29,590 nt of DNA, from IMG/VR virus record IMGVR_UViG_3300013093_003029, positions 1-29,590 of that record; one strand, 5' to 3'. This document shows positions 5,435-19,608 of the stretch, one piece after another. The stretch's first letter is position 1, and each line of letters starts with the position of its first letter. Both the position numbers and the translations under genes were made by a program. The DNA is from a virus. The notes beneath the pieces were generated by a model, which had not been told where the DNA came from, did not search any database, and saw only the letters and a program-made list of their open reading frames with translations.

Positions 5435-6004
5435 ATGCCAAATTATTGTGCTAATACCGCAGTGTTCAAGCATGAAGATGCTAACCAAGTTACCAAGCTG
5501 ATTACAGCTTTTAACGATGGTTGTTTGTTTAATGCTTTTGTTCCTTGCCCTGAAGAACTTCATGAACAGACACCCATTGGTGAAGATTATGTAGCTCGTG
5601 ATGCTGCTAGAACTGCTGCAAACATTGAGAAGCATGGCTATGCCAGTTGGTATGATTGGTGTGTCGAACACTGGGGAACCAAGTGGGATGTCAGCAGCGA
5701 AGGCAATGTTGAGGAAACTGATCCTAATACTGCTTCACTATATTTTGACAGTGCCTGGAGTCCCCCAATTGCGTTCTATAACGCCATGTGCGATATGGGG
5801 TGGGAAATCACTGCCTACTACTTCGAACCCGGTATGAACTATTGCGGCATGTTTGATAACGGCGATGATGACTATATCGAAATTGAAGGCGATGCATCAT
5901 GGGTAGAAGACAATGTGCCCAAGGAACTTAATGAAATGTTTGGCATCTCAGATATGATGGCAGACTTTGAAGACGAGGAGCAGGAAGAGGATGGCTCCGA
6001 TTAG
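5435..6004 (+). CDS. Api92/YubB-like ferredoxin-fold phage protein
   Basis: 189 aa. MPNYCANTAVF at the N-terminus and WYDWCVEHWGTKWDVS in the middle are hallmarks of the Api92/DUF1281 family (YubB ferredoxin-like domain) in phages and plasmids. A typical FDSAWSPPIAFY segment follows. The C-terminus is strongly acidic (FEDEEQEEDGSD), as in DNA-mimic proteins, though the family's role is not established. It is part of the 4519 operon. Confidence 0.82.
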   Translation: MPNYCANTAVFKHEDANQVTKLITAFNDGCLFNAFVPCPEELHEQTPIGEDYVARDAARTAANIEKHGYASWYDWCVEHWGTKWDVSSEGNVEETDPNTASLYFDSAWSPPIAFYNAMCDMGWEITAYYFEPGMNYCGMFDNGDDDYIEIEGDASWVEDNVPKELNEMFGISDMMADFEDEEQEEDGSD

Positions 6005-6016
6005 AAAGGACTAACA

Positions 6017-6466
6017 ATGTTCGTAGGTAAGGTAATTGTATTCGATCTAGACGGCACGATCTGCAATGTGGATCACAGGCGTCACTGGGTTGCCAGTAAG
6101 CCTAAGAACTGGGCTGCTTGGGACGCTGGTCTGCCAAATGATACTCCCAACGAGGATATCATTTGGATGCTGAATAGCTTCCTGGATTCTGGCGATATAC
6201 GTATCGTTCTGTGCAGTGGTCGCGACAGTCGGCTGCGTGAGGCAACTGAGGCGTGGCTGACAAAGCATCATGTCTACTACGACTCTCTGTATATGAGAGC
6301 AAGTGGCGATAACCGTAAGGACTCAATCGTTAAGGTTGAACTGCTGCACGACATCCAGCGTGACTGGGCTTGGCCTTTCATCTGGTTCGACGACAGAGAC
6401 CAAGTCGTAAATGCTATAAGGGAACAAGGGGTAAGGGTATGTCAAGTTGCGCCGGGGGATTTCTAA
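6017..6466 (+). CDS. polynucleotide 3'-phosphatase domain (HAD family, PseT C-terminal-like)
   Basis: 149 aa stand-alone HAD phosphatase. FDLDGTICNVDHR carries the nucleophile and acid Asp residues (D10, D12), CSGRDSRLRE is motif II, and WFDDRDQVV is the acidic metal motif. The NVDHRRHW and NWAAWDAGLPNDTPN segments match the phosphatase half of T4 polynucleotide kinase, which removes 3' or 2',3'-cyclic phosphates from cut RNA. In T4 this is fused to the kinase; here the kinase is a separate gene at 7147. Its stop overlaps the next start (TAATG). Confidence 0.88.
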   Translation: MFVGKVIVFDLDGTICNVDHRRHWVASKPKNWAAWDAGLPNDTPNEDIIWMLNSFLDSGDIRIVLCSGRDSRLREATEAWLTKHHVYYDSLYMRASGDNRKDSIVKVELLHDIQRDWAWPFIWFDDRDQVVNAIREQGVRVCQVAPGDF

Positions 6467-6765
6467 TGTTCCCCGGCAAACTGGAAGTACTAGAGCGTCC
6501 CAAATCAAAGTGGCCTTATTGGCTACTATACAAAGAAGCACAATCAGGTGGCTGGGATCATATTATTGATTACCAACATGTTATGTTGAAAATTGATCTA
6601 ATGCGGGATAAGATTCCTGTTGTAGTTGAAAGACAATGGGGACAATATACAGGATGGAGCGGTCGTAAGCATAAGAAGCAATATGGCATTCTATATAAGT
6701 TCCTAAAGGAAGAAGACAGGCTAATCTTTCTCATGTCACAGGAGACAGGCAATGAACTACACTAA
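6466..6765 (+). CDS. F-x-LRW-family-like small protein, divergent member
   Basis: 99 aa, starting at the ATG that overlaps the phosphatase stop (TAATG). Its C-terminal LYKFLKEEDRLIFLMS matches the motif of the 16-19.6 kb array (F-x-x-E-E-D-x-x-x-F-x-L) but ends SQETGNELH instead of LRW. The N-terminus is Trp/Tyr-rich and basic. Its place between the two RNA-repair enzymes is unexplained. Confidence 0.75.
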   Translation: MFPGKLEVLERPKSKWPYWLLYKEAQSGGWDHIIDYQHVMLKIDLMRDKIPVVVERQWGQYTGWSGRKHKKQYGILYKFLKEEDRLIFLMSQETGNELH

Positions 6766-7135
6766 TTACCAGTTAGTTAAGACGCTGGAGGTAATGGCAG
6801 AAGATTGCGGATTTGAAATCCGTCGTTCTGCTTATGGCAGTGATCATCTAAGTCTTATGACTCAGGATAAGGCTACTGCTCTTCCTGTATATGCTCGTAA
6901 TATCGCTCTGTTTAATGGCACAGTGGAAGAGTGTGTATGCTTCCTGCAGGGTTGGTACAAGCAGCGTGAATACCTTACAGTATTGCTCAAGCTTAAGACT
7001 GATCGTATTAAGGAAGCAGAGCAGAAACTGGTTGACAAGTATGAGTCGGATCGTGTAATGTCAGCATTAAAGACTGGTAAGGATATTGGATGGATGACTC
7101 CTGCAAAGGACGATCCAAACCATGCACCATTTTAA
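6752..7135 (+). CDS. phage protein of unknown function
   Basis: 127 aa. A small alpha/beta N-terminus (LVKTLEVMAEDCGFEIRRS) is followed by FNGTVEECVCFLQGWYKQ, then a coiled-coil-like charged helix (LKTDRIKEAEQKLVDKYES). Not recognised. It overlaps the preceding gene by 14 nt and lies 11 nt before the kinase. Confidence 0.75.
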   Translation: MNYTNYQLVKTLEVMAEDCGFEIRRSAYGSDHLSLMTQDKATALPVYARNIALFNGTVEECVCFLQGWYKQREYLTVLLKLKTDRIKEAEQKLVDKYESDRVMSALKTGKDIGWMTPAKDDPNHAPF

Positions 7136-7146
7136 GGAACAATAAC

Positions 7147-7623
7147 ATGCCAACTATGTATATGCTTATCGGAGTACCTGCAAGTGGTAAGAGCACTTGG
7201 CGTGAGAAGTATCAAGGCGATGCTGTAGTTGTCAGCACTGATGACATAATTGATCAAACTGCTGCTGCTCGTAATAGCACTTACAACGAAGTGTTTAAGG
7301 AGAATATCAAGTTTGCTACCCAGATTGCTACCGAGCGGGCCAAGGAAGCTTTCGCTGCCAACAAGGATGTAATTTGGGATCAGACCAACATTACCAAGAA
7401 GAGCCGCAAGAGCAAGTTGGCAATGGTGCCTGAACACTATCGCAAGACTGCCGTGTTCTTTGCAACTCCGCTTGAGGAAGAGTGGCAGCGTCGTCTCAAC
7501 AGCCGACAGGGCAAGAGCATACCTGCTCATATCCTAGACAGCATGGTCGAGATGTTGGAGATGCCCGATCTTGATGAAGGTTGGCATATTATCGAATATC
7601 ATATGAATGCAGTTGACAGATAG
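7147..7623 (+). CDS. polynucleotide 5'-kinase domain (P-loop, PseT N-terminal-like)
   Basis: 158 aa. The start is ATG 7147 with AGGAAC upstream; an earlier in-frame ATG lies inside the previous gene. GVPASGKSTW (residues 9-18) is the Walker A loop, STDDI the substrate-binding Asp segment, and DQTNITKKSRK and RLNSRQGKSIP match the NxT and lid-Arg regions of T4 kinase-like AAA_33 proteins. It would phosphorylate 5'-OH ends left by ribonucleases. With the separate phosphatase at 6017 it makes a split version of T4 Pnkp. The next operon's promoter lies in its 3' end. Confidence 0.87.
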   Translation: MPTMYMLIGVPASGKSTWREKYQGDAVVVSTDDIIDQTAAARNSTYNEVFKENIKFATQIATERAKEAFAANKDVIWDQTNITKKSRKSKLAMVPEHYRKTAVFFATPLEEEWQRRLNSRQGKSIPAHILDSMVEMLEMPDLDEGWHIIEYHMNAVDR

Positions 7624-7640
7624 CCAAACTGTGCTATATT
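7613..7640 (+). promoter_or_regulatory. sigma70-like promoter for RNA ligase
   Basis: TTGACA (7613-7618), 16 nt, TATATT (7635-7640), overlapping the end of the kinase gene. The leader has GAGGTG before ATG 7663. Confidence 0.8.
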
Positions 7641-7662
7641 AATAATACAAACGAGGTGCAAA

Positions 7663-8925
7663 ATGAACTACGATTTTCCCATGATTCGGCATTTGGACGA
7701 TGTGCGCCCTGCTATTGAGGGTCGTGATGAGTTCATTATTGCCGAGCGTGACTGGGGTTATGTTGTTAACTATATGGTCGCTATGACTGATACTTTTCCT
7801 CCCGTTTTGGATGATGAATACTGGTGTCCTGGTTGCAAGATGCCCGTAAGCGAAACTGAGGGCTGTGGATCGCAGCGTTGTCCTGAGGCTGTGAATCTAG
7901 CAGCAATACGTCGTGAGTGCCGTGGCATACTGTTCTATCCTGATGGGCGCTTGATGATGCGTCGTCTACACAAGTTCTTCAATGTCAATGAGCGTGATGA
8001 AACTCAGTTTGGAGTTATTGACTTCACTAAGCCACATGTTATTCTTGAAAAGCTTGACGGCAGCATGATCACCCCTGTTATGACTGACGCTGGTATCCGT
8101 TGGGGTACTAAGATGGGTGTTACTGATGTCAGCATGGGTGCTGAACTGTTCGTTGCTCATCATCCGCAGTACGAGCAGTTTGCTCGTTGGTGCTTGTCCA
8201 TGCGCCTGACTCCAATTTTCGAATGGTGTAGCCGCAAGCAGCGTATTGTAGTGGACTATCCTGAGGATCGGTTAGTGCTTATCGCACTGCGTGGCACTGA
8301 GACCGGCGAGTATAAGCAGTATTGTGATCTGGTAGTGTTAGGCGAAAAGTTCAACATTGAAGTAGTAAAGACCTACGAGGGCACTGCTGACAGCATGGAG
8401 CATCTGATCTCAGAGACTCGCAGCATGGAAGATGCTGAAGGTTATATCATACGCTTCGATGATGGGCATATGGTCAAGATCAAGGGCGAGTGGTATGTGC
8501 GGATCCACAAGACTAAAGACAACCTCACCCACGAGAAGAATGTTGTGGAGTTGTTGATCACTGAGAAGATGGATGATGCTAAGGCTTTCATGATGGATGA
8601 AGATCGCAAGCGTGTAGAAGCGTTTGAGACTGAATTCTGGGACGGTATAGCACATCAAGTGGATGCTTATGACAAGTATTTCGCTATGGTTTTGGCTGCT
8701 GGATTAGATCGTAAGCGTTTCGCTCTTGAGTGGATGCCTACTATCACTCCGCAAGATCCTTATGCTGCAAACATTGTTTTTGGTCTGTTTAATGGCAAGG
8801 ACACTCGTCAGATGGTTCTAGACATTATTGCTAAGAACTGCGGCACTCAGACTAAGATCAACGGCGTTCGTAGTTTGTGGGGCGGCAATGCCCAGTGGAA
8901 CTATCACTTTGATGGAGATGTATAA
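7663..8925 (+). CDS. rnlA: T4 RNA ligase 1-like (Rnl1) with a zinc-ribbon-like insert
   Basis: 420 aa. Nucleotidyltransferase motifs in order: ECRGILF (85-91), motif I EKLDGS with the adenylated Lys130, motif III FEW (186-188), motif IV EGYIIRF (259-265) and motif V VKIKGEWY (271-278). HKFFNVNE upstream of motif I is typical of Rnl1. The enzyme seals 3'-OH/5'-phosphate RNA ends, in T4 repairing tRNA cut by anticodon nucleases. Unusual here is a four-cysteine insert at 55-73 (CPGC...C...C) that could bind zinc. It has its own promoter and sits directly after the kinase. The stop overlaps the next ATG. Confidence 0.93.
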   Translation: MNYDFPMIRHLDDVRPAIEGRDEFIIAERDWGYVVNYMVAMTDTFPPVLDDEYWCPGCKMPVSETEGCGSQRCPEAVNLAAIRRECRGILFYPDGRLMMRRLHKFFNVNERDETQFGVIDFTKPHVILEKLDGSMITPVMTDAGIRWGTKMGVTDVSMGAELFVAHHPQYEQFARWCLSMRLTPIFEWCSRKQRIVVDYPEDRLVLIALRGTETGEYKQYCDLVVLGEKFNIEVVKTYEGTADSMEHLISETRSMEDAEGYIIRFDDGHMVKIKGEWYVRIHKTKDNLTHEKNVVELLITEKMDDAKAFMMDEDRKRVEAFETEFWDGIAHQVDAYDKYFAMVLAAGLDRKRFALEWMPTITPQDPYAANIVFGLFNGKDTRQMVLDIIAKNCGTQTKINGVRSLWGGNAQWNYHFDGDV

Positions 8926-13597: not shown

Positions 13598-14626
13598 TTA
13601 ATAATTGATCTTTATCCCAAGTAGTCCTGACAATATGTCTTTGAATTTTGAGAGATCAAATGCATAGTATTCTCCATTAATGAGAACTTCATTACCTGAA
13701 GCAAGTGCTTCATTAAAGTTCTTATTAGTTGGTTCGATATTGTATTTGATGTGATGATAATCGATCATATTATCAAGTGTGATCTTCTTTAATGCAGTAG
13801 CAGGATATTTGGCATCTCTAAGATATTTTATAGATGCTTCATACCCTTCAAATTGTAGAACTTCTTGCCATTCATACCCTGAAGCATCACTAGACATTTT
13901 ACCTGCTTCTACTAATTTATCGACGTTATCAATAATCAAATCAATAGCAGCTTCTTTATATAAGGGTGATACATCGTCGATTACCATGTCAGGCTCCTGC
14001 ACTGCCCAACTGAATTGAAATCCATTTTTTGGGATGATGATATACAAGTTGCCGTAACTACTTGCTTGATCGCTATCGCTTGTAGTAAAGATACTATTAC
14101 TACGCAAAGCACTGATACCCATCTTTTGTAGAGCATAGTCGAATATTTTTTGTCCTTCTTCAGTACTATTCAATACATTTCGTTCAGACCAACTTCTACC
14201 AACATAAGCAGGAGCATTGGATTTGCCTTTCTTAACACCTCTGAACAATATCTTGCCAGTTGCTTTAAATGCTTTTAATGCCTGACTACATTCTTTCTGT
14301 ATAGTTTGTACAAGTGGGCCAAATGATTTTGCTTGAGATGCTACAGCGGTAGCTGTTGCTTGTTCAACTTGAGCACGAAGTTTTGCTTCTTCAGCATCTA
14401 ACATAGCATGAAACTCGGCCATCTTTGCAGTTAGTTCTTTATTTGCAAAAGTTGTTGGAGCAATGCCTAAAGGTCCAGCCATGCGTTGAGCAGATTCTAA
14501 TTTATCAAGCTCTTCTTTCATTGATTCAATTTTTGCTATCTTTAACTTAACAACCTTAACATCAAGCTTCTGTTTCTCACCTGGCTGTAATGTCATCTTA
14601 GGTGCTTTTACGGGTGCTTTAGCCAT
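13598..14626 (-). CDS. ADP-ribosyltransferase-like protein with coiled-coil N-terminus
   Basis: 342 aa. The start is ATG 14626 (AAGG upstream, overlapping the previous stop); a longer frame begins inside the kinase gene. Residues 1-115 are charged, helical and Ala/Lys/Glu-rich. The C-terminal part shows an ART-like R-S-E order: LFRG (R), SIFTTSD (S-T-S position) with ASSYG, and NEVLINGEYYAF (E position). It is clearly paralogous to the 205-aa protein at 15287 (shared GRSW, ALRSNSIF, TS, NGF, INGxYYA). T4 Alt-like enzymes modify host RNA polymerase; that role is inference. It is the last gene of a three-gene minus operon. Confidence 0.6.
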   Translation of the reverse strand: MAKAPVKAPKMTLQPGEKQKLDVKVVKLKIAKIESMKEELDKLESAQRMAGPLGIAPTTFANKELTAKMAEFHAMLDAEEAKLRAQVEQATATAVASQAKSFGPLVQTIQKECSQALKAFKATGKILFRGVKKGKSNAPAYVGRSWSERNVLNSTEEGQKIFDYALQKMGISALRSNSIFTTSDSDQASSYGNLYIIIPKNGFQFSWAVQEPDMVIDDVSPLYKEAAIDLIIDNVDKLVEAGKMSSDASGYEWQEVLQFEGYEASIKYLRDAKYPATALKKITLDNMIDYHHIKYNIEPTNKNFNEALASGNEVLINGEYYAFDLSKFKDILSGLLGIKINY

Positions 14627-15284
14627 TGGTATTACCTTGTGTTCTTGCTGCTCGCTGTTGCTTAATCCATTCTGCTGCTGCTGGGCGACGAGGAGGAGCA
14701 GCAAGCCACGCTCTCATTGCCTTATCAACATATCCAATATTAGGAGTTTCATTATTATCAATGATATAGAACTGCTGTCCAAATGTTCCTTGTAGCTTAC
14801 CTAGTCCATTCTGAACCTGCTGCCAAGTTGAACGAACAAACTCGTCATCTACTACACGACCTTGATCTTTTCCGGGAGTTCCTGCACGGTGTACAGTTCT
14901 CTGTAATGCTGTTTCCAATGAGGTATTAACAAAGATCATAGCACAATCATACCCCATGCTTTCAAGATGAGCTTTAACGTCAGCCATCTTCTCGGGATTG
15001 CGAGCTGTACCATCTATTAATAGACCTAAACGACCAGCAAGGTAATTGCCTTCCTGTTTCTTATACAACTGCCAAAACTTTTCGTAATCACCCTCTTTGC
15101 CCATTTGGTTATACAACTGCCAAAAAGTATCGACATTAAGACTCTTTAATCCTGACCCGCCAAACAACTTGTTGGCAATGGTGCTTTTACCAGCACCCGG
15201 AGCCCCTGCCATAAACACTGCTTTAAAGATATTTTGATCGAATAATCCTTCTGGAATTGCTTGGAAAAGTTCAAATACTCTCAT
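14619..15284 (-). CDS. P-loop kinase, zeta-toxin/AAA_33-like
   Basis: 221 aa. MAGAPGAGKSTIANKLF (25-41) is the Walker A loop; LNVDTFWQLY, LLIDGTARN and FVNTSLETALQRTVHR resemble zeta-toxin and related small-molecule kinases. The N-terminal MRVFELFQAIPEG looks like a short amphipathic leader followed by I-P-E, which fits the T4 prohead-protease site (hydrophobic-x-E), so it may be a capsid-targeting peptide. Substrate unknown. It lies between the two ART-like genes, 2 nt from one and overlapping the other by 8 nt. Confidence 0.8.
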   Translation of the reverse strand: MRVFELFQAIPEGLFDQNIFKAVFMAGAPGAGKSTIANKLFGGSGLKSLNVDTFWQLYNQMGKEGDYEKFWQLYKKQEGNYLAGRLGLLIDGTARNPEKMADVKAHLESMGYDCAMIFVNTSLETALQRTVHRAGTPGKDQGRVVDDEFVRSTWQQVQNGLGKLQGTFGQQFYIIDNNETPNIGYVDKAMRAWLAAPPRRPAAAEWIKQQRAARTQGNTNG

Positions 15285-15286
15285 TC

Positions 15287-15904
15287 TTATAACCCTATGC
15301 CTAATTTTTTAGATAGATATTCGCCATACATATTATATTTTAATGCGTAGTATTGACCATTAATATAAATTTCTACACCTTGATTAATAGCAACTGCAAG
15401 GTCTTTATTCCGTGGGTGAAACTCTTCATAAAACACTTTTGGATCATTGCTGGTTACCCATTCATTACCTAAGGTGCCTTCTGATTCAGGATTCAATGAT
15501 AAATCCGTAAAAGAAGTGTATGTGTAATTGAATCCATTAATTGGAAAAATAATGTAAGGTGTTCCAAAATAACTGGCTGTTTTAACAGCAGATGTGACAA
15601 ATATGCTGTTACTTCTTAATGCTTTGAATCCTAATGCTTTTAACATGCTGTCAAAACGTCTGCTGAGTTTATCATCACTATCCACTGGAATTCTATTTTC
15701 CCAACTTCTGCCTCTGACAATAGGTTGACCACTATTAAACCCACGATACATAAATCTGCCGCCATTTTTACAAGCAGCAATTGATTCACTACAATTTGGA
15801 ACGATGGCTTTTTCCCAAAGTTGTTCAAACTTCTCAACATTGTATCCAATTATTTCAGGACCAATATTTCTTTTTTGACCAGGTTCAATTTCACTCAGAC
15901 GCAT
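15287..15904 (-). CDS. ADP-ribosyltransferase-like protein (shorter paralogue)
   Basis: 205 aa. ART-like pattern: FMYRGFNSG (R), SIFVTS (S position) with ASYFG, and VEIYINGQYYAL (E position). GRSWENR, ALRSNSIF and FPINGF are shared with the 342-aa neighbour. MRLSEIEPG at the N-terminus could be a short capsid-targeting leader (L-S-E). A late octamer AATAAATA lies 4 nt before the ATG, consistent with late synthesis and packaging. Catalytic activity is not proven by these motifs. Confidence 0.62.
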   Translation of the reverse strand: MRLSEIEPGQKRNIGPEIIGYNVEKFEQLWEKAIVPNCSESIAACKNGGRFMYRGFNSGQPIVRGRSWENRIPVDSDDKLSRRFDSMLKALGFKALRSNSIFVTSAVKTASYFGTPYIIFPINGFNYTYTSFTDLSLNPESEGTLGNEWVTSNDPKVFYEEFHPRNKDLAVAINQGVEIYINGQYYALKYNMYGEYLSKKLGIGL

Positions 15905-15927: not shown

Positions 15928-15959
15928 TTGACAGTTCATAAGTATTCCTGTACTATAAT
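15928..15959 (+). promoter_or_regulatory. sigma70-like promoter for the tRNA and paralogue array
   Basis: TTGACA (15928-15933) with TACTAT (15951-15956, spacer 17) or TATAAT (15954-15959, spacer 20). Transcription would start at about the first base of the tRNA (15965). Confidence 0.72.
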
Positions 15960-16054: not shown

Positions 16055-16381
16055 ATGGATTTCAAACCTTTTTCAATTCACGTAGGTTACGATACAAGAG
16101 TAACTGAATATGAAATTGGCAAGAGAGGTAAAGGCCCCACTGATGCTGTTATCAATTGGTTAGCAGAATCAAATATCAAATGGCATTTTGAATGGCAATA
16201 TCCAGAAGCAACTGATCCAGGTAGTGTATTTTCAATAATGGAATTTGTTGAAATAGTTAATCAACATCAGAAAAAAAGTGGCGGCATCTTCTATTTTGAC
16301 AATGAAGAAGATAAGCTGCTATTCTGTTTGAAATGGCTTACTACTAGTATAGAAGAACCTTTAATGTGGCATCCAGTATAG
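16055..16381 (+). CDS. F-x-LRW array member 1
   Basis: 108 aa. ATG 16055 follows AAGGA; an upstream in-frame ATG lies within the tRNA. The family motif is IFYFDNEEDKLLFCLKWL (about 78-95), here followed by a 15-residue tail (TTSIEEPLMWHPV). Upstream is a Trp-rich segment (INWLAESNIKWHFEWQY) comparable to the WC-x-E segment of other members. Function unknown. Confidence 0.8.
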   Translation: MDFKPFSIHVGYDTRVTEYEIGKRGKGPTDAVINWLAESNIKWHFEWQYPEATDPGSVFSIMEFVEIVNQHQKKSGGIFYFDNEEDKLLFCLKWLTTSIEEPLMWHPV

Positions 16382-16389
16382 GAACTTAA

Positions 16390-16542
16390 ATGGACTTTCG
16401 CAAAGCAATTCATAATCATCTACCTTGGGCAATTATTGCCATTTGTATAATGGAAATCATGCTTAATTGGTCACGCTCATCAGAAGCATTTGCTTGGATT
16501 ATTGCTACTGTTGGGTGGCTTGCATATAAAATCGAAACATAA
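16390..16542 (+). CDS. 50-aa two-helix membrane protein
   Basis: MDFRKAIHNHLPWAIIAICI followed by a short loop (NWSRSSEA) and FAWIIATVGWLAYK make two membrane segments. GGAAC lies before ATG 16390. It separates array member 1 from the rest and is not related to them. Confidence 0.65.
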   Translation: MDFRKAIHNHLPWAIIAICIMEIMLNWSRSSEAFAWIIATVGWLAYKIET

Positions 16543-16546
16543 GAAT

Positions 16547-16629
16547 TTTCGACTTTGATGTTGACAGACAAACTTAAAAATGAAAACTGTAAAATTAAAA
16601 CTGTATAAACAACTTCATCAAAGTCGGAA
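16547..16629 (+). promoter_or_regulatory. 14-bp inverted repeat hiding a ribosome site
   Basis: TTTCGACTTTGATG (16547-16560) pairs with CATCAAAGTCGGAA (16616-16629), one U-G. The 3' arm contains the GGA that would serve ATG 16636. The A-rich 55-nt loop has two AAAACTGTA copies and begins with TTGACA (16561), but no good -10 at proper spacing is seen. Confidence 0.6.
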
Positions 16630-16635
16630 TACTTA

Positions 16636-16851
16636 ATGGAAAAAAGTCATTTTATCGTTGTTACCGCTGAATTCGATAAAGATATTATTGGATTATTAAT
16701 TCAAGATTACAATTGGTGGTTTCAAAATGAAAAAGAAATCGAGCAATGGTGTCGAGACATAATGGGTAAAAATTATGAAAGACAAGGCATAATCATTAAT
16801 TTTACTAATACAGAAGACAGGCTTCAATTTTTACTTCGTTGGGGATCATGA
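16636..16851 (+). CDS. F-x-LRW array member 2
   Basis: 71 aa. Family motifs: EIEQWCRDIMG in the middle and IINFTNTEDRLQFLLRWGS at the C-terminus. The rest (HFIVVTAEFDKDIIGLL) is beta-like. GGA at 16626 is the ribosome site and lies in a long hairpin. The stop overlaps the next start as ATGA. Confidence 0.82.
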   Translation: MEKSHFIVVTAEFDKDIIGLLIQDYNWWFQNEKEIEQWCRDIMGKNYERQGIIINFTNTEDRLQFLLRWGS

Positions 16852-17120
16852 AATATCGTTTAGAAGTTTTAACAGACCAAGTTACCAGTGACGGATTTCT
16901 TCCAAGAGTTCGTGTAATTGAAGATTATTCATCAGTTGATTTTCACCAGCAACATTATATCAATACCTTTGCTGATCTCAATGAAGATGAAGATAAACAA
17001 CCTATTATGCAAATGGCTGAGTGGTGCGAAGAGAATGAGTGCGGTTACCGTACAAGTTATGACACGTTTAAGTTTCGCAATCGAGATCAATTAACAATGT
17101 TTATCCTGAGGTGGTCGTGA
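16848..17120 (+). CDS. F-x-LRW array member 3
   Basis: 90 aa. The start is the ATG in the ATGA overlap. N-terminus RLEVLTDQVTSDGF is unlike its neighbours; the second half has MAEWCEENECGYRTSY and FKFRNRDQLTMFILRWS, the clearest form of the shared WC-x-E and F-x-LRW pair. It is joined to the next gene by GTGA. Confidence 0.82.
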   Translation: MKYRLEVLTDQVTSDGFLPRVRVIEDYSSVDFHQQHYINTFADLNEDEDKQPIMQMAEWCEENECGYRTSYDTFKFRNRDQLTMFILRWS

Positions 17121-17473
17121 CTGAATATGATGTCATTTTGACTACTGACAAAAAAGACATTCATGAAGGCAAATTGAATATGCTATTGATGCCACGATCA
17201 ATTCATATTCAAAAAAACAATGCTTATCTCACTGAGATATACATTCCTGAAATTATGATGCATCCGCCTATATACACCATTTGGAAAATGGAAACAGCTA
17301 TGAAAGCAGAATATTCATATACACATGAATTGGAATATTGGCCTGGACCAACGAAGTCTAATAGCATTAGACAATGGGTTGAAGAGATGCGAATTTCATG
17401 CACACAGATTAATCGACTTTGGTATTTTAAAACTGATGAAGATCGACTACTGTTTATAATGGTTTGGGGATGA
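17117..17473 (+). CDS. F-x-LRW array member 4
   Basis: 118 aa from GTG 17117 (GTGA overlap); GTG 17111 is also possible. It is longest of the group, with an extended variable N-terminus, then IRQWVEEMRISCTQ and LWYFKTDEDRLLFIMVWG. Stop and next ATG overlap as ATGA. Confidence 0.8.
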   Translation: MTEYDVILTTDKKDIHEGKLNMLLMPRSIHIQKNNAYLTEIYIPEIMMHPPIYTIWKMETAMKAEYSYTHELEYWPGPTKSNSIRQWVEEMRISCTQINRLWYFKTDEDRLLFIMVWG

Positions 17474-17697
17474 CTAGACTAGCATTTTATTACCATGATT
17501 TGGATGGCAGAGGTCATGCCACTCAATTTTGGAAGAATTTCATGGCTCATATCCATACATATAAGAAAACTCCAGATGCAGTATGGGGCATGGCTTTTGT
17601 TATGTTAGAAGAATACAATGCTTATATCATTGAAGAAAATTATATCAAATTTGAAACTGAAGAAGATATGCTGTTGTTTATGTTGAGATGGGCATGA
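17470..17697 (+). CDS. F-x-LRW array member 5
   Basis: 75 aa, ATGA-coupled at both ends. YYHDLDGRGHATQFWKNF near the start is unique to it; C-terminal YIKFETEEDMLLFMLRWA is the family motif. Confidence 0.82.
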   Translation: MTRLAFYYHDLDGRGHATQFWKNFMAHIHTYKKTPDAVWGMAFVMLEEYNAYIIEENYIKFETEEDMLLFMLRWA

Positions 17698-17918
17698 TAA
17701 TCAAATCTGGCATCGTGGAAGATATATTTAAAAATCCAGGACCATGGCATTATGCTGTGATCAATGATTATTATATCAACATTTTTGAAGTTGTAGATTG
17801 GTGTTTGGATAGCTTTGGTATCGACAGTTTCTATAATTGGTGTGTCAGTGCGGATAGAACTGCTTTCTTCTTCAAGAACCATGATGATTTCATCATGTTT
17901 GTATTGCGGTGGTCATGA
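17694..17918 (+). CDS. F-x-LRW array member 6
   Basis: 74 aa, ATGA-coupled at both ends. VVDWCLDSFGIDSFYNWC gives the WC segment; AFFFKNHDDFIMFVLRWS is the C-terminal motif, with HDD replacing EED. Confidence 0.82.
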   Translation: MIIKSGIVEDIFKNPGPWHYAVINDYYINIFEVVDWCLDSFGIDSFYNWCVSADRTAFFFKNHDDFIMFVLRWS

Positions 17919-18256
17919 AAAGAGTTAAAACCAAAGTCCAAGCAAAGACTCGAAAACTCAGTGCCGAATGGACTTTTGAAGAATCTCAATATACTCAGCA
18001 TCATATAAGTGATGAACTTGCTAAGATATTACAAGAAGAGATTGATAAAGAAATTGTCAATGAGCTTAAAGCACAACAATTAGTCAATGACGGATGGATT
18101 ATGATTCCATTCACAGTTAAAATTTCAATTGATTGGTTCAGGGAAAACATACAAAACGAATATATTATGCTTAGTGAGGCAATGTATTTTAAAAGTCATG
18201 ACGATGCTGTGTTATACTCATTGACATGGTCAGGACAGGATAAGGAATATGGTTGA
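17915..18256 (+). CDS. F-x-LRW array member 7
   Basis: 113 aa. A basic N-terminus (MKRVKTKVQAKTRKL) and a helical middle (ELAKILQEEIDKEIVNEL) are unlike other members. The motif is MYFKSHDDAVLYSLTWS followed by GQDKEYG, so LRW has become LTW. It overlaps the zinc-protein gene by 8 nt. Confidence 0.8.
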   Translation: MKRVKTKVQAKTRKLSAEWTFEESQYTQHHISDELAKILQEEIDKEIVNELKAQQLVNDGWIMIPFTVKISIDWFRENIQNEYIMLSEAMYFKSHDDAVLYSLTWSGQDKEYG

Positions 18257-18485
18257 AGTAAGCGATGAAAACTTAATTAGAATATTATCTGGAGAGAAGA
18301 TGTTGATGAATTGGAAGTGTCGCATTGGCTGGCATCGTTGGACTACGTGGACACATGATCAAAAGACTCTGAATCCAATCAACTTTGAAATGAATGGAAC
18401 TGGCTTCATGCATAGTCATTGTGTAGACTGTAACATGAAGAGAGTAGAACGACCAGTAAGCAAGACAATTGCTATTCCATCATGA
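18249..18485 (+). CDS. small zinc-binding protein (DUF1660-like)
   Basis: 78 aa. MNWKCRIGWHRWTTW and HSHCVDCNMKRVE supply C-x3-H-x-W and C-x2-C metal ligands, a pattern known from DUF1660 prophage proteins. It lacks the F-x-LRW motif, so it is an outsider inside the array, yet it keeps the same overlap style (ATGA into the next gene). Confidence 0.75.
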   Translation: MVEVSDENLIRILSGEKMLMNWKCRIGWHRWTTWTHDQKTLNPINFEMNGTGFMHSHCVDCNMKRVERPVSKTIAIPS

Positions 18486-18706
18486 AATTAGCACTAATGA
18501 GCGATGCGTGGCAGATGATATATCGCAATCTGCGTGCCGAACTTTATAGGGTTAGACTTGGTGGACCTGACAGTAGACAAGAGCTTCAAGAGTTCTTTAA
18601 AGGCTATGGAGTTATAATAAAGACTGATACAGATGGCCGCTGGGAAGAAGTTGAGATTGTGTTAGATGATGAAGAGCTTACTATATTCTTGTTGACTTGG
18701 GCATGA
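18482..18706 (+). CDS. F-x-LRW array member 8
   Basis: 74 aa, ATGA-coupled at both ends. The front (SDAWQMIYRNLRAELYRVR) is helical and basic; the C-terminus EIVLDDEELTIFLLTWA is the motif with LTW. Confidence 0.8.
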   Translation: MKLALMSDAWQMIYRNLRAELYRVRLGGPDSRQELQEFFKGYGVIIKTDTDGRWEEVEIVLDDEELTIFLLTWA

Positions 18707-18954
18707 CAGCAAGAACATCAAAAGCATATCGTGTGCCTAGGAAAAGACCTTTGAAACGAACATGGGAATATAGTCCAGCTATACGTACATTTTTTTGGAA
18801 TCGCGATCATTATAGTCGTATGCTCAATCATAATTTAGAAACTGATGAAGAATTAGTAGCATGGTGCGAAGAATATTCCTGTAATGTATATCAAAATTGG
18901 GTTGAATGTCCAGACGATGAAACTGTAACAATGTTTATACTGAGGTGGTCATAA
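18703..18954 (+). CDS. F-x-LRW array member 9
   Basis: 83 aa. Very basic N-terminus (SKAYRVPRKRPLKRTWEY), then LVAWCEEYSCNVYQNWVE and CPDDETVTMFILRWS. The arrangement closely follows member 3. It joins the next gene by TAATG. Confidence 0.82.
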   Translation: MTARTSKAYRVPRKRPLKRTWEYSPAIRTFFWNRDHYSRMLNHNLETDEELVAWCEEYSCNVYQNWVECPDDETVTMFILRWS

Positions 18955-19109
18955 TGGATAATTGGACTTGTATCGTTGTTAGAAATTGGCAAGAAGTTGA
19001 ATCTAGCTGGTGCCTTGAAAACCTTGAAGGGCAGTGGGTTTCTATGGGAAATTACTGGTATTTTGAACGGGAAGAAGACATAACAATATTCGCATTGAGG
19101 TGGTTATGA
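18954..19109 (+). CDS. F-x-LRW array member 10 (51 aa, minimal)
   Basis: 51 aa. It is the shortest member and may define the minimal domain: MDNWTCIVVRNWQEVESSW, CLENLEGQWVSMG, then YWYFEREEDITIFALRWL. TAATG joins it to the gene before and ATGA to the gene after. Confidence 0.78.
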   Translation: MDNWTCIVVRNWQEVESSWCLENLEGQWVSMGNYWYFEREEDITIFALRWL

Positions 19110-19360
19110 AAGAGATTCCATTTCATCTTTTAGTAGAGGATAAGAACCCTAAGTATGGTGTACACTATCTTGGACTCTATGAATATTGGGAAAATTTCTT
19201 GAGGGCAGTTCATAATGAAGCAAATGGTGATATGAAACAAAGAGCTCATCTCTTTGAAGAGTGGAAAAAGGAATGGAAAGTTAATTCTAACGCCAAGACA
19301 GGAATGTTGGAATTTGATACTGAAGAAGATGCCATTATGTTTATATTGAGGTGGTCATGA
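19106..19360 (+). CDS. F-x-LRW array member 11
   Basis: 84 aa. HLLVEDKNPKYGVHYLGLYE at the front, LFEEWKKEWKVNSNAK in the WC position (without Cys), and LEFDTEEDAIMFILRWS at the end, the nearest to a family consensus. ATGA overlaps on both sides. Confidence 0.82.
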   Translation: MKEIPFHLLVEDKNPKYGVHYLGLYEYWENFLRAVHNEANGDMKQRAHLFEEWKKEWKVNSNAKTGMLEFDTEEDAIMFILRWS

Positions 19361-19608
19361 GCAGATATGTAATACTACACAAACTTACACGTGGATTTAG
19401 AGATTGGGAATATAGAGGAAGCTATGTTGAGAGTAGCCGTGAAACGGTTCCTACTATGAATGCAGAATTTAGTGATTGGTATAGAGAAAACCAACATCTT
19501 ATTAAGACAGTTCATAGTCATAGAATGGTAGAAATGGATAGGACTGAAATAGCTTTTGAATTCCATAATGAGGAAGATGCACTACTTTGTATGCTAACTT
19601 TCAGTTGA
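19357..19608 (+). CDS. F-x-LRW array member 12 (last)
   Basis: 83 aa. FSDWYRENQHLIKTVHSH corresponds to the WC segment; the motif FEFHNEEDALLCMLTFS has lost the final RW. The array ends here: the stop touches the TTGACA of the next promoter. Confidence 0.8.
   Translation: MSRYVILHKLTRGFRDWEYRGSYVESSRETVPTMNAEFSDWYRENQHLIKTVHSHRMVEMDRTEIAFEFHNEEDALLCMLTFS

Follow-up and report, generated by a model that had tools for sequence, protein, structure and literature searches.

The internal head proteins of phage T4 form several paralogues in which a common targeting sequence is joined to a variable remainder. The first quarter of the capsid protein gp23 contains Gol, a stretch of 29 residues that is the best conserved part of gp23, binds domains II and III of EF-Tu and so triggers Lit (PMC3014915); CapRel, too, is triggered directly by capsid proteins (PMC9712102). 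The locus described here lies in a viral record of 29,590 bases (the window, by which we mean this whole stretch), which carries five transfer RNAs (tRNAs) together with a T4-type RNA ligase, a PNKP-type phosphatase and an AAA_33 kinase. Between positions 16055 and 19608, twelve open reading frames (ORFs) of 51-118 amino acids (aa) have in common a C-terminal module, F-x(3)-[ED]D-x(3)-F-x-L-R-W-x-stop, which we call the LRW domain. Two properties of this family escaped an earlier, sequence-only reading of the window: tail conservation is partly that of the next gene's ribosome-binding site, and several of the fronts consist of pieces from the major capsid protein.

All twelve ORFs of the reported run exist, with corrected starts, and similarity from member to member is mostly limited to the last 15-60 residues. 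A profile built without window sequences recovered 11 of them among ~9,000 ORFs (E 7e-12 to 1.4e-4) and an equivalent profile had zero matches in reversed or shuffled ORFs, which excludes chance. Member 8, weak alone (E 0.13), is counted in by its position and its LLTWA end. The run is not uninterrupted, as had been supposed, since two non-members lie within it (16390-16542 and 18249-18485). Nor do most members have the W-C-x-E segment ascribed to them: W-C stands at the helix in five of the twelve, and W alone is near-universal. The tails vary (LKW, MVW, LTW, LTF), and two members run beyond the tail. A second viral contig, L003 (labels of this kind denote the viral loci and records compared), holds a near base-for-base copy of the array and thus adds no independent evidence. 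A thirteenth member proposed at 6466 is not established, because this ORF scores E 0.4-0.7 against the family profile and its pairwise likeness to two members is short (6e-4 when 14 sequences were compared).

The LRW consensus consists of a helix (..W-C-x-E-x-F-G..), a strand with R-W, a strand F-x-F and a helix E-D-A-x-x-F-x-L-R-W, and the predicted fold is β-α-β-β-α. In the AlphaFold2 model of member 6 (predicted local distance difference test score, pLDDT, 83.5; predicted template modelling score, pTM, 0.70), strands span residues 19-22, 49-51 and 57-60 and helices 30-41 and 63-73. Member 7, modelled from a different, shallow alignment, shows a disordered front and one helix, followed by β-α-β-β-α (pLDDT 81-93 in the back part and 73 overall, pTM 0.54). 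The likeness of the C-terminal parts is predicted in these two members, as agreement in the order of secondary structure. The domain had been called unnamed, and we found no counterpart for it: scans of 75 and 100 members against Pfam, PHROGs and PADLOC gave no consistent family, the PDB gave no significant sequence or fold match (best Foldseek E 0.85), and literature searches, which covered open-licence papers, returned no description of the family. Several BFVD proteins assigned to 'uncultured Caudovirales phage' (A0A6J5L4C8, A0A6J5L9M2 and others) are of similar size and reach Foldseek probabilities up to 1.00 and template modelling scores of 0.6-0.77, although with E-values of only 4e-3 to 0.1 and without a function or family name; they are probably unannotated members. 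No described family or system that we searched contains LRW, and its sequences exist in databases as unannotated proteins.

The family pattern comprises the Trp of helix 1, a Phe in the strand and [ED]D-x3-F-x-L-R-W a few residues from the C-terminus. It offers no conserved block of 7-10 columns for an alignment-driven locus search, so we used a degenerate DNA pattern of the motif (F-x3-[DE]D-x3-F-x-L-R-W-x-stop), which matched at least 119 stretches of viral contigs. An iterated profile over the 119 viral loci gave 703 members and none in reversed or shuffled ORFs; in total, ~780 copies were found in ~120 viral contigs. The loci were recruited by the motif itself, and copy counts per locus are therefore conditional on recruitment. 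By the profile search suggested in the sequence-only reading, the family is hugely expanded in phages, and its motif is commoner than chance and belongs to no characterised family in the libraries searched. Nineteen viral records of 108-518 kb carry 2-29 members each. Among cultured phages, the profile detects 34 members in Sinorhizobium phage Phosso and, with weaker scores, five in Agrobacterium phage Atu_ph07 and three in Pseudomonas phage PA5oct; it detects none in Vibrio phage 2.275.O, Synechococcus phage B23, Caulobacter phage Cr30 or Roseobacter phage DSS3P8. Single members used in tblastn against 50,697 phage genomes returned nothing convincing, and profile search of whole records alone gave the finds. 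When applied to bacterial and archaeal genomes (257 Gb), the same DNA pattern matched 11 times against ~7.5 expected by chance on our own estimate. The sole real match, L191 (DLXM01000070.1), is a 6.4 kb contig in a Bacteroidetes metagenome-assembled genome with 15 LRW genes in a row. It is best read as a misbinned phage contig, and we rejected a host-genome origin; judged by these searches, the family is phage-specific and essentially absent from cellular genomes. Over half of the 15 L191 genes are of a W(W)xNF...NAxY subtype.

About 20 LRW proteins, member 7 of the window among them, have fronts homologous to three separate segments of gp23 (PF07068, phrog_138), which we located with a profile of two carrier capsid proteins. 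The first piece, from the N-arm (IRRxxPxxxAxxIxGVQPM), occurs in ~10 lineages and aligns to T4 gp23 residues 95-133; by this alignment it covers the Gol region, which we take to be residues ~93-121. The N-arm/Gol core is present in L095, L141, L142, L042, L104, L028, L033, G004/G008 and L009 and was not found in member 7, which has the spine piece instead. This second piece, the E-loop/spine-helix, corresponds roughly to T4 gp23 residues 254-312 when two alignments are composed and also occurs in G004, G008 and L095; its relatives in L036, L048, L121 and L063 keep mainly the helix and score weakly. The third, AFYxPYVPL, is found in Phosso (113923-114303) and, by eye, in L009 behind the N-arm piece. 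Member 7 matches PF07068 at 1.5e-7 (31.6 bits against a cutoff of 24.4; profile positions 140-228 of 376), and no other window member matches this family. At 113 aa, with a partial match and no near full-length HK97-type capsid, member 7 carries a piece of gp23 and is not gp23 itself. Small ORFs with gp23 pieces are concentrated in the family (15 of 778 LRW ORFs versus 4 of 5,827 others, p 2.5e-11); among the four others, two likewise end in LxLRWS or LKLKWS. L004, recruited via its capsid-like stretch alone, belongs to a record with three LRW members. At 5752-6096, L004/L005 encode a 114-aa protein with a split gp23 E-loop/spine piece and no LRW tail; the record has LRW genes elsewhere.

These fronts could mean that gp23-fronted LRW proteins act as dominant negatives that poison capsid assembly in T4-like phages which co-infect or superinfect the cell, with other members hitting other steps of the competitor. 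Conserved gp23 segments could bind capsid subunits, and several carriers themselves encode gp23, which is full-length in 6 of the 20 records searched. However, the pieces are similar to gp23 of the phage's own kind (for example, 65-77% identity to the major capsid protein of another carrier), so self-poisoning would have to be avoided. Most members, moreover, have no capsid piece, and we consider this explanation unlikely.

When 100 long-front members were compared with PHROGs and Pfam, the major head protein was the sole family recognised by more than one member; the exceptions are single weak matches, such as a terminase at E 0.0056. Random capture of any phage gene as a front is accordingly disfavoured. 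Front modules shuffle and recur as orthologous modules in unrelated phages. Relatives of member 3 in L049, L123 and L026 share GxRxSxDxFxF in front of the strand. Another motif, (N)K(K/T)YWP(Y/H)(Q/H), also recurs among the fronts and sometimes stands right behind the gp23 N-arm piece. For 20 pairs of orthologues drawn from two phages, the ratio of nonsynonymous to synonymous rates (dN/dS) is 0.13 in the fronts and 0.16 in the last 20 aa. Both halves are thus under purifying selection, and the comparison of rates per half, put forward earlier as a check, does not support recent positive selection in the fronts. The picture of duplication with front diversification keeps its single paralogous family, but the fronts do not look like products of fast, free divergence; what we see is orthologous recurrence and purifying selection.

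In the tail TTG-AGG-TGG-TCA-TGA, the codons for L-R-W-S-stop also supply the Shine-Dalgarno sequence and start codon of the next gene, with GAGGTG placed nine bases upstream of the next ATG. The ATGA and GTGA junctions pointed out earlier, often TGG-TCA-TGA, were correctly described and are accounted for by this dual coding. Among 513 distinct members, the junctions are ATGA (308), TAATG (56), GTGA (38), TTGA (11) and TGATG (5). The LRW Arg is written AGG in 255 of 335 ATG-coupled and 42 of 46 GTGA- or TTGA-coupled tails (78% of coupled tails), as against 20 of 72 uncoupled tails (28%) and 196 of the 2,232 other Arg codons in the same genes (9%). The synonymous rate of the last 20 codons relative to the rest is 0.50 in the 20 orthologue pairs (95% bootstrap 0.28-0.82). 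Tail conservation is partly that of the ribosome-binding site of the next gene, a clear case of a protein end shaped both by its own function and by its neighbour's translation start. A purely RNA-level cause was rejected as sufficient, since LRW and the exact W-x-end are kept in uncoupled genes. Of the 117 non-recruited members with no start codon in the next 12 nt, 72 end exactly one residue past the Trp, mostly on a Ser written TCN or AGY, and uncoupled tails keep LRW with CGN or AGA codons.

One could also regard the tail as a gene-birth cassette, kept mainly for the coupling ribosome-binding site that it carries and for a repeat that favours recombination, with which new fronts of little function are captured. 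The Shine-Dalgarno sequence and start within the tail codons, the halved synonymous rate and the shuffling of front modules would all agree with this. It appears improbable to us in view of the uncoupled genes just described, of a dN/dS of 0.13-0.16 across both parts and of the conservation of the whole domain, its distant Trp included.

We likewise give little credence to the possibility that members act on EF-Tu or the ribosome and favour phage translation, with the Gol-like front as EF-Tu binder. LRW fronts do keep the gp23 stretch that binds EF-Tu domains II/III (PMC3014915), and a few arrays adjoin tRNAs or translation genes. Yet tRNAs were present at only 2 of the 40 loci scanned, so that we rejected this neighbourhood as a general functional clue, and the Gol-like front is restricted to ~10 lineages.

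In G004, each of the two LRW arrays is closely preceded by strict sigma70-like promoters (183.7-189.2 kb before 190.6-195.0 kb, and 201.0-202.9 kb before 203.0-212.9 kb), and none occurs on the + strand of the first 28 kb, which holds the capsid gene. From this arrangement we infer that LRW genes may be expressed early, from host-type promoters. In the window, a promoter-like site at 15928 (10 of 12) stands ahead of a tRNA-Leu and the array; such sites are common in AT-rich DNA. The three PA5oct members are without the note of detection by electrospray ionization tandem mass spectrometry that PA5oct structural genes carry. A role of LRW proteins as internal or accessory head proteins, with gp23 pieces as docking tags, would match the gp23 pieces in the fronts and the common segment with variable rest of T4 internal head proteins and their targeting sequence, but it is quite improbable given the G004 arrays, far from the capsid gene and behind sigma70-like promoters, and the PA5oct annotation.

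Tentatively, and from sequence, we prefer to read the array as encoding early-expressed adaptor proteins, some of which would engage partners or sensors of the capsid protein. It would form one translationally coupled operon for small adaptor-like proteins of large myoviruses, each built on the same LRW domain; this domain would dock to one common partner and have a functional C-terminal end, and each front would be a target-binding module for a different partner. The fronts with gp23 pieces (Gol/N-arm, spine-helix, AFYxPYVPL) would occupy cellular partners of the capsid protein or capsid-sensing defences, such that recognition is blocked or the partner redirected. Most plausibly, this subset would meet EF-Tu, chaperonin, capsid subunits or capsid immune sensors, on which it might act as decoy, inhibitor or modulator. 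The adaptor reading is supported by the exact C-terminal end being kept where no gene follows closely, and the triggering of Lit (PMC3014915) and CapRel (PMC9712102) by capsid protein counts in its favour. A bolder version, which we find doubtful, is a modular counter-defence and host-adaptor system of tens of early proteins per phage with interchangeable, target-binding fronts on the docking domain, in which fronts made of the capsid motifs recognised by bacterial immune sensors and EF-Tu would blunt capsid sensing before capsid is made.

Several points weigh against adaptors. Most fronts match nothing, and a capsid-linked role may be confined to a few members in each phage. Since Lit in E. 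coli is activated by a Gol-like peptide, carrying a copy might do harm as well as good. Hosts are known for only a minority of carriers, the PDB search gave no fold match hinting at binding chemistry, the argument for early expression is drawn from sequence, and the PA5oct members are few and weak.

Table. Features of the LRW array in the window and related features at other loci; E-values of members 1-7 and 9-12 are from the profile built without window sequences; that of the proposed 13th member is against the family profile, and that of member 8 comes from the comparison in which it was weak alone.
Feature	Coordinates	Strand	Profile E
LRW member 1, 108 aa, end ...YFDNEEDKLLFCLKW + 14 aa	16055..16381	+	1.9e-6
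LRW member 2, 71 aa, end LLRWGS; relatives in L009, L014, L073	16636..16851	+	3.8e-8
LRW member 3, 90 aa, end FILRWS	16848..17120	+	1.3e-10
LRW member 4, GTG start, 118 aa, end FIMVWG	17117..17473	+	7.9e-6
LRW member 5, 75 aa, 'FWKNF...LEEYNAY' subtype, end FMLRWA	17470..17697	+	1.1e-5
LRW member 6, 74 aa, canonical domain	17694..17918	+	7.3e-12
LRW member 7, 113 aa, chimera of gp23-piece front and LRW domain back	17915..18256	+	5.5e-5
LRW member 8, 74 aa, divergent, end LLTWA	18482..18706	+	0.13
LRW member 9, 83 aa, end FILRWS; relative in L020	18703..18954	+	1.4e-4
LRW member 10, 51 aa, minimal, nearly domain alone	18954..19109	+	6.5e-11
LRW member 11, 84 aa, 'YWENF' subtype, end FILRWS	19106..19360	+	1.2e-6
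LRW member 12, 83 aa, end CMLTFS	19357..19608	+	6.3e-5
Non-member inside array, 50 aa, hydrophobic	16390..16542	+	
Non-member inside array, 78 aa, Cys/His-rich, WKCRIGWHRW...CVDCNMKRVERP	18249..18485	+	
Dual-coding tail ATC-CTG-AGG-TGG-TCG-TGA: I-L-R-W-S-stop of member 3 with Shine-Dalgarno/GTG start of member 4	17103..17120	+	
Same tail design with ATG	17900-17918, 19343-19360	+	
Same tail design with TAATG	18937-18956	+	
Proposed 13th member; likeness restricted to one strand-helix stretch	6466..6765	+	0.4-0.7
Homologues of the 18249-18485 protein	L058:9667-9882, L024:7224-7439, L022:2858-3058, L043:11262-11480		
K/YWP front motif	L143:15895-16218 and 16438-16659, L036:4654-5007, G004:212638-212910, L058:7098-7325, L011:4381-4623, L028:12124-12372		

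The Cys/His-rich non-member of the array belongs to a type (WKCRxGWHRWT...CxDC...RIExP), without an LRW domain, that recurs in four LRW-array loci. The noncoding gap from 16542 to member 2 contains a perfect 11-bp inverted repeat, CGACTTTGATG ... CATCAAAGTCG, at 16552-16626, possibly an RNA hairpin or operator. Elsewhere in the window, an RNA-repair cluster at 6017-8922 holds the PNKP-type phosphatase, the AAA_33 kinase and the RNA ligase, which is of T4 Rnl1 type and has 34-42% identity to its closest counterparts, those of Synechococcus phage B23 and Roseobacter/Ruegeria phages. On the minus strand (13601-14632, 14622-15284 and 15290-15904), two related proteins flank a Zeta-toxin/AAA_33 kinase; both have ALRSNSIF-TS...YG--YIIFP-NGF and look ADP-ribosyltransferase-like by eye, with no Pfam match.

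The family reaches up to 34 paralogues in a single phage and counts hundreds of members across ~120 viral contigs, and the libraries searched give it no name, model or function. The link to capsid pieces provides a concrete entry point for tests with EF-Tu, Lit and CapRel-type sensors, and cultured carriers, namely Phosso and probably Atu_ph07 and PA5oct, make the family testable. Like the T4 internal head proteins, LRW proteins combine a shared segment with a variable remainder in several paralogues, but here the shared segment is a folded domain at the C-terminus, and the tests run gave no sequence match to those proteins and no sign of virion presence. Compared with gp23 of T4-like phages, the gp23-like LRW fronts are pieces of 25-60 residues without the capsid fold, fused to an unrelated C-terminal domain and, in G004, encoded far from the capsid gene. 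The closest parallel to Gol/Lit exclusion lies in the N-arm fronts, which span the gp23 region holding Gol, whereas the Gol-like stretch of LRW relatives sits in separate small genes and is joined to another domain. LRW proteins may perhaps work like decoys, which would be a resemblance rather than membership.

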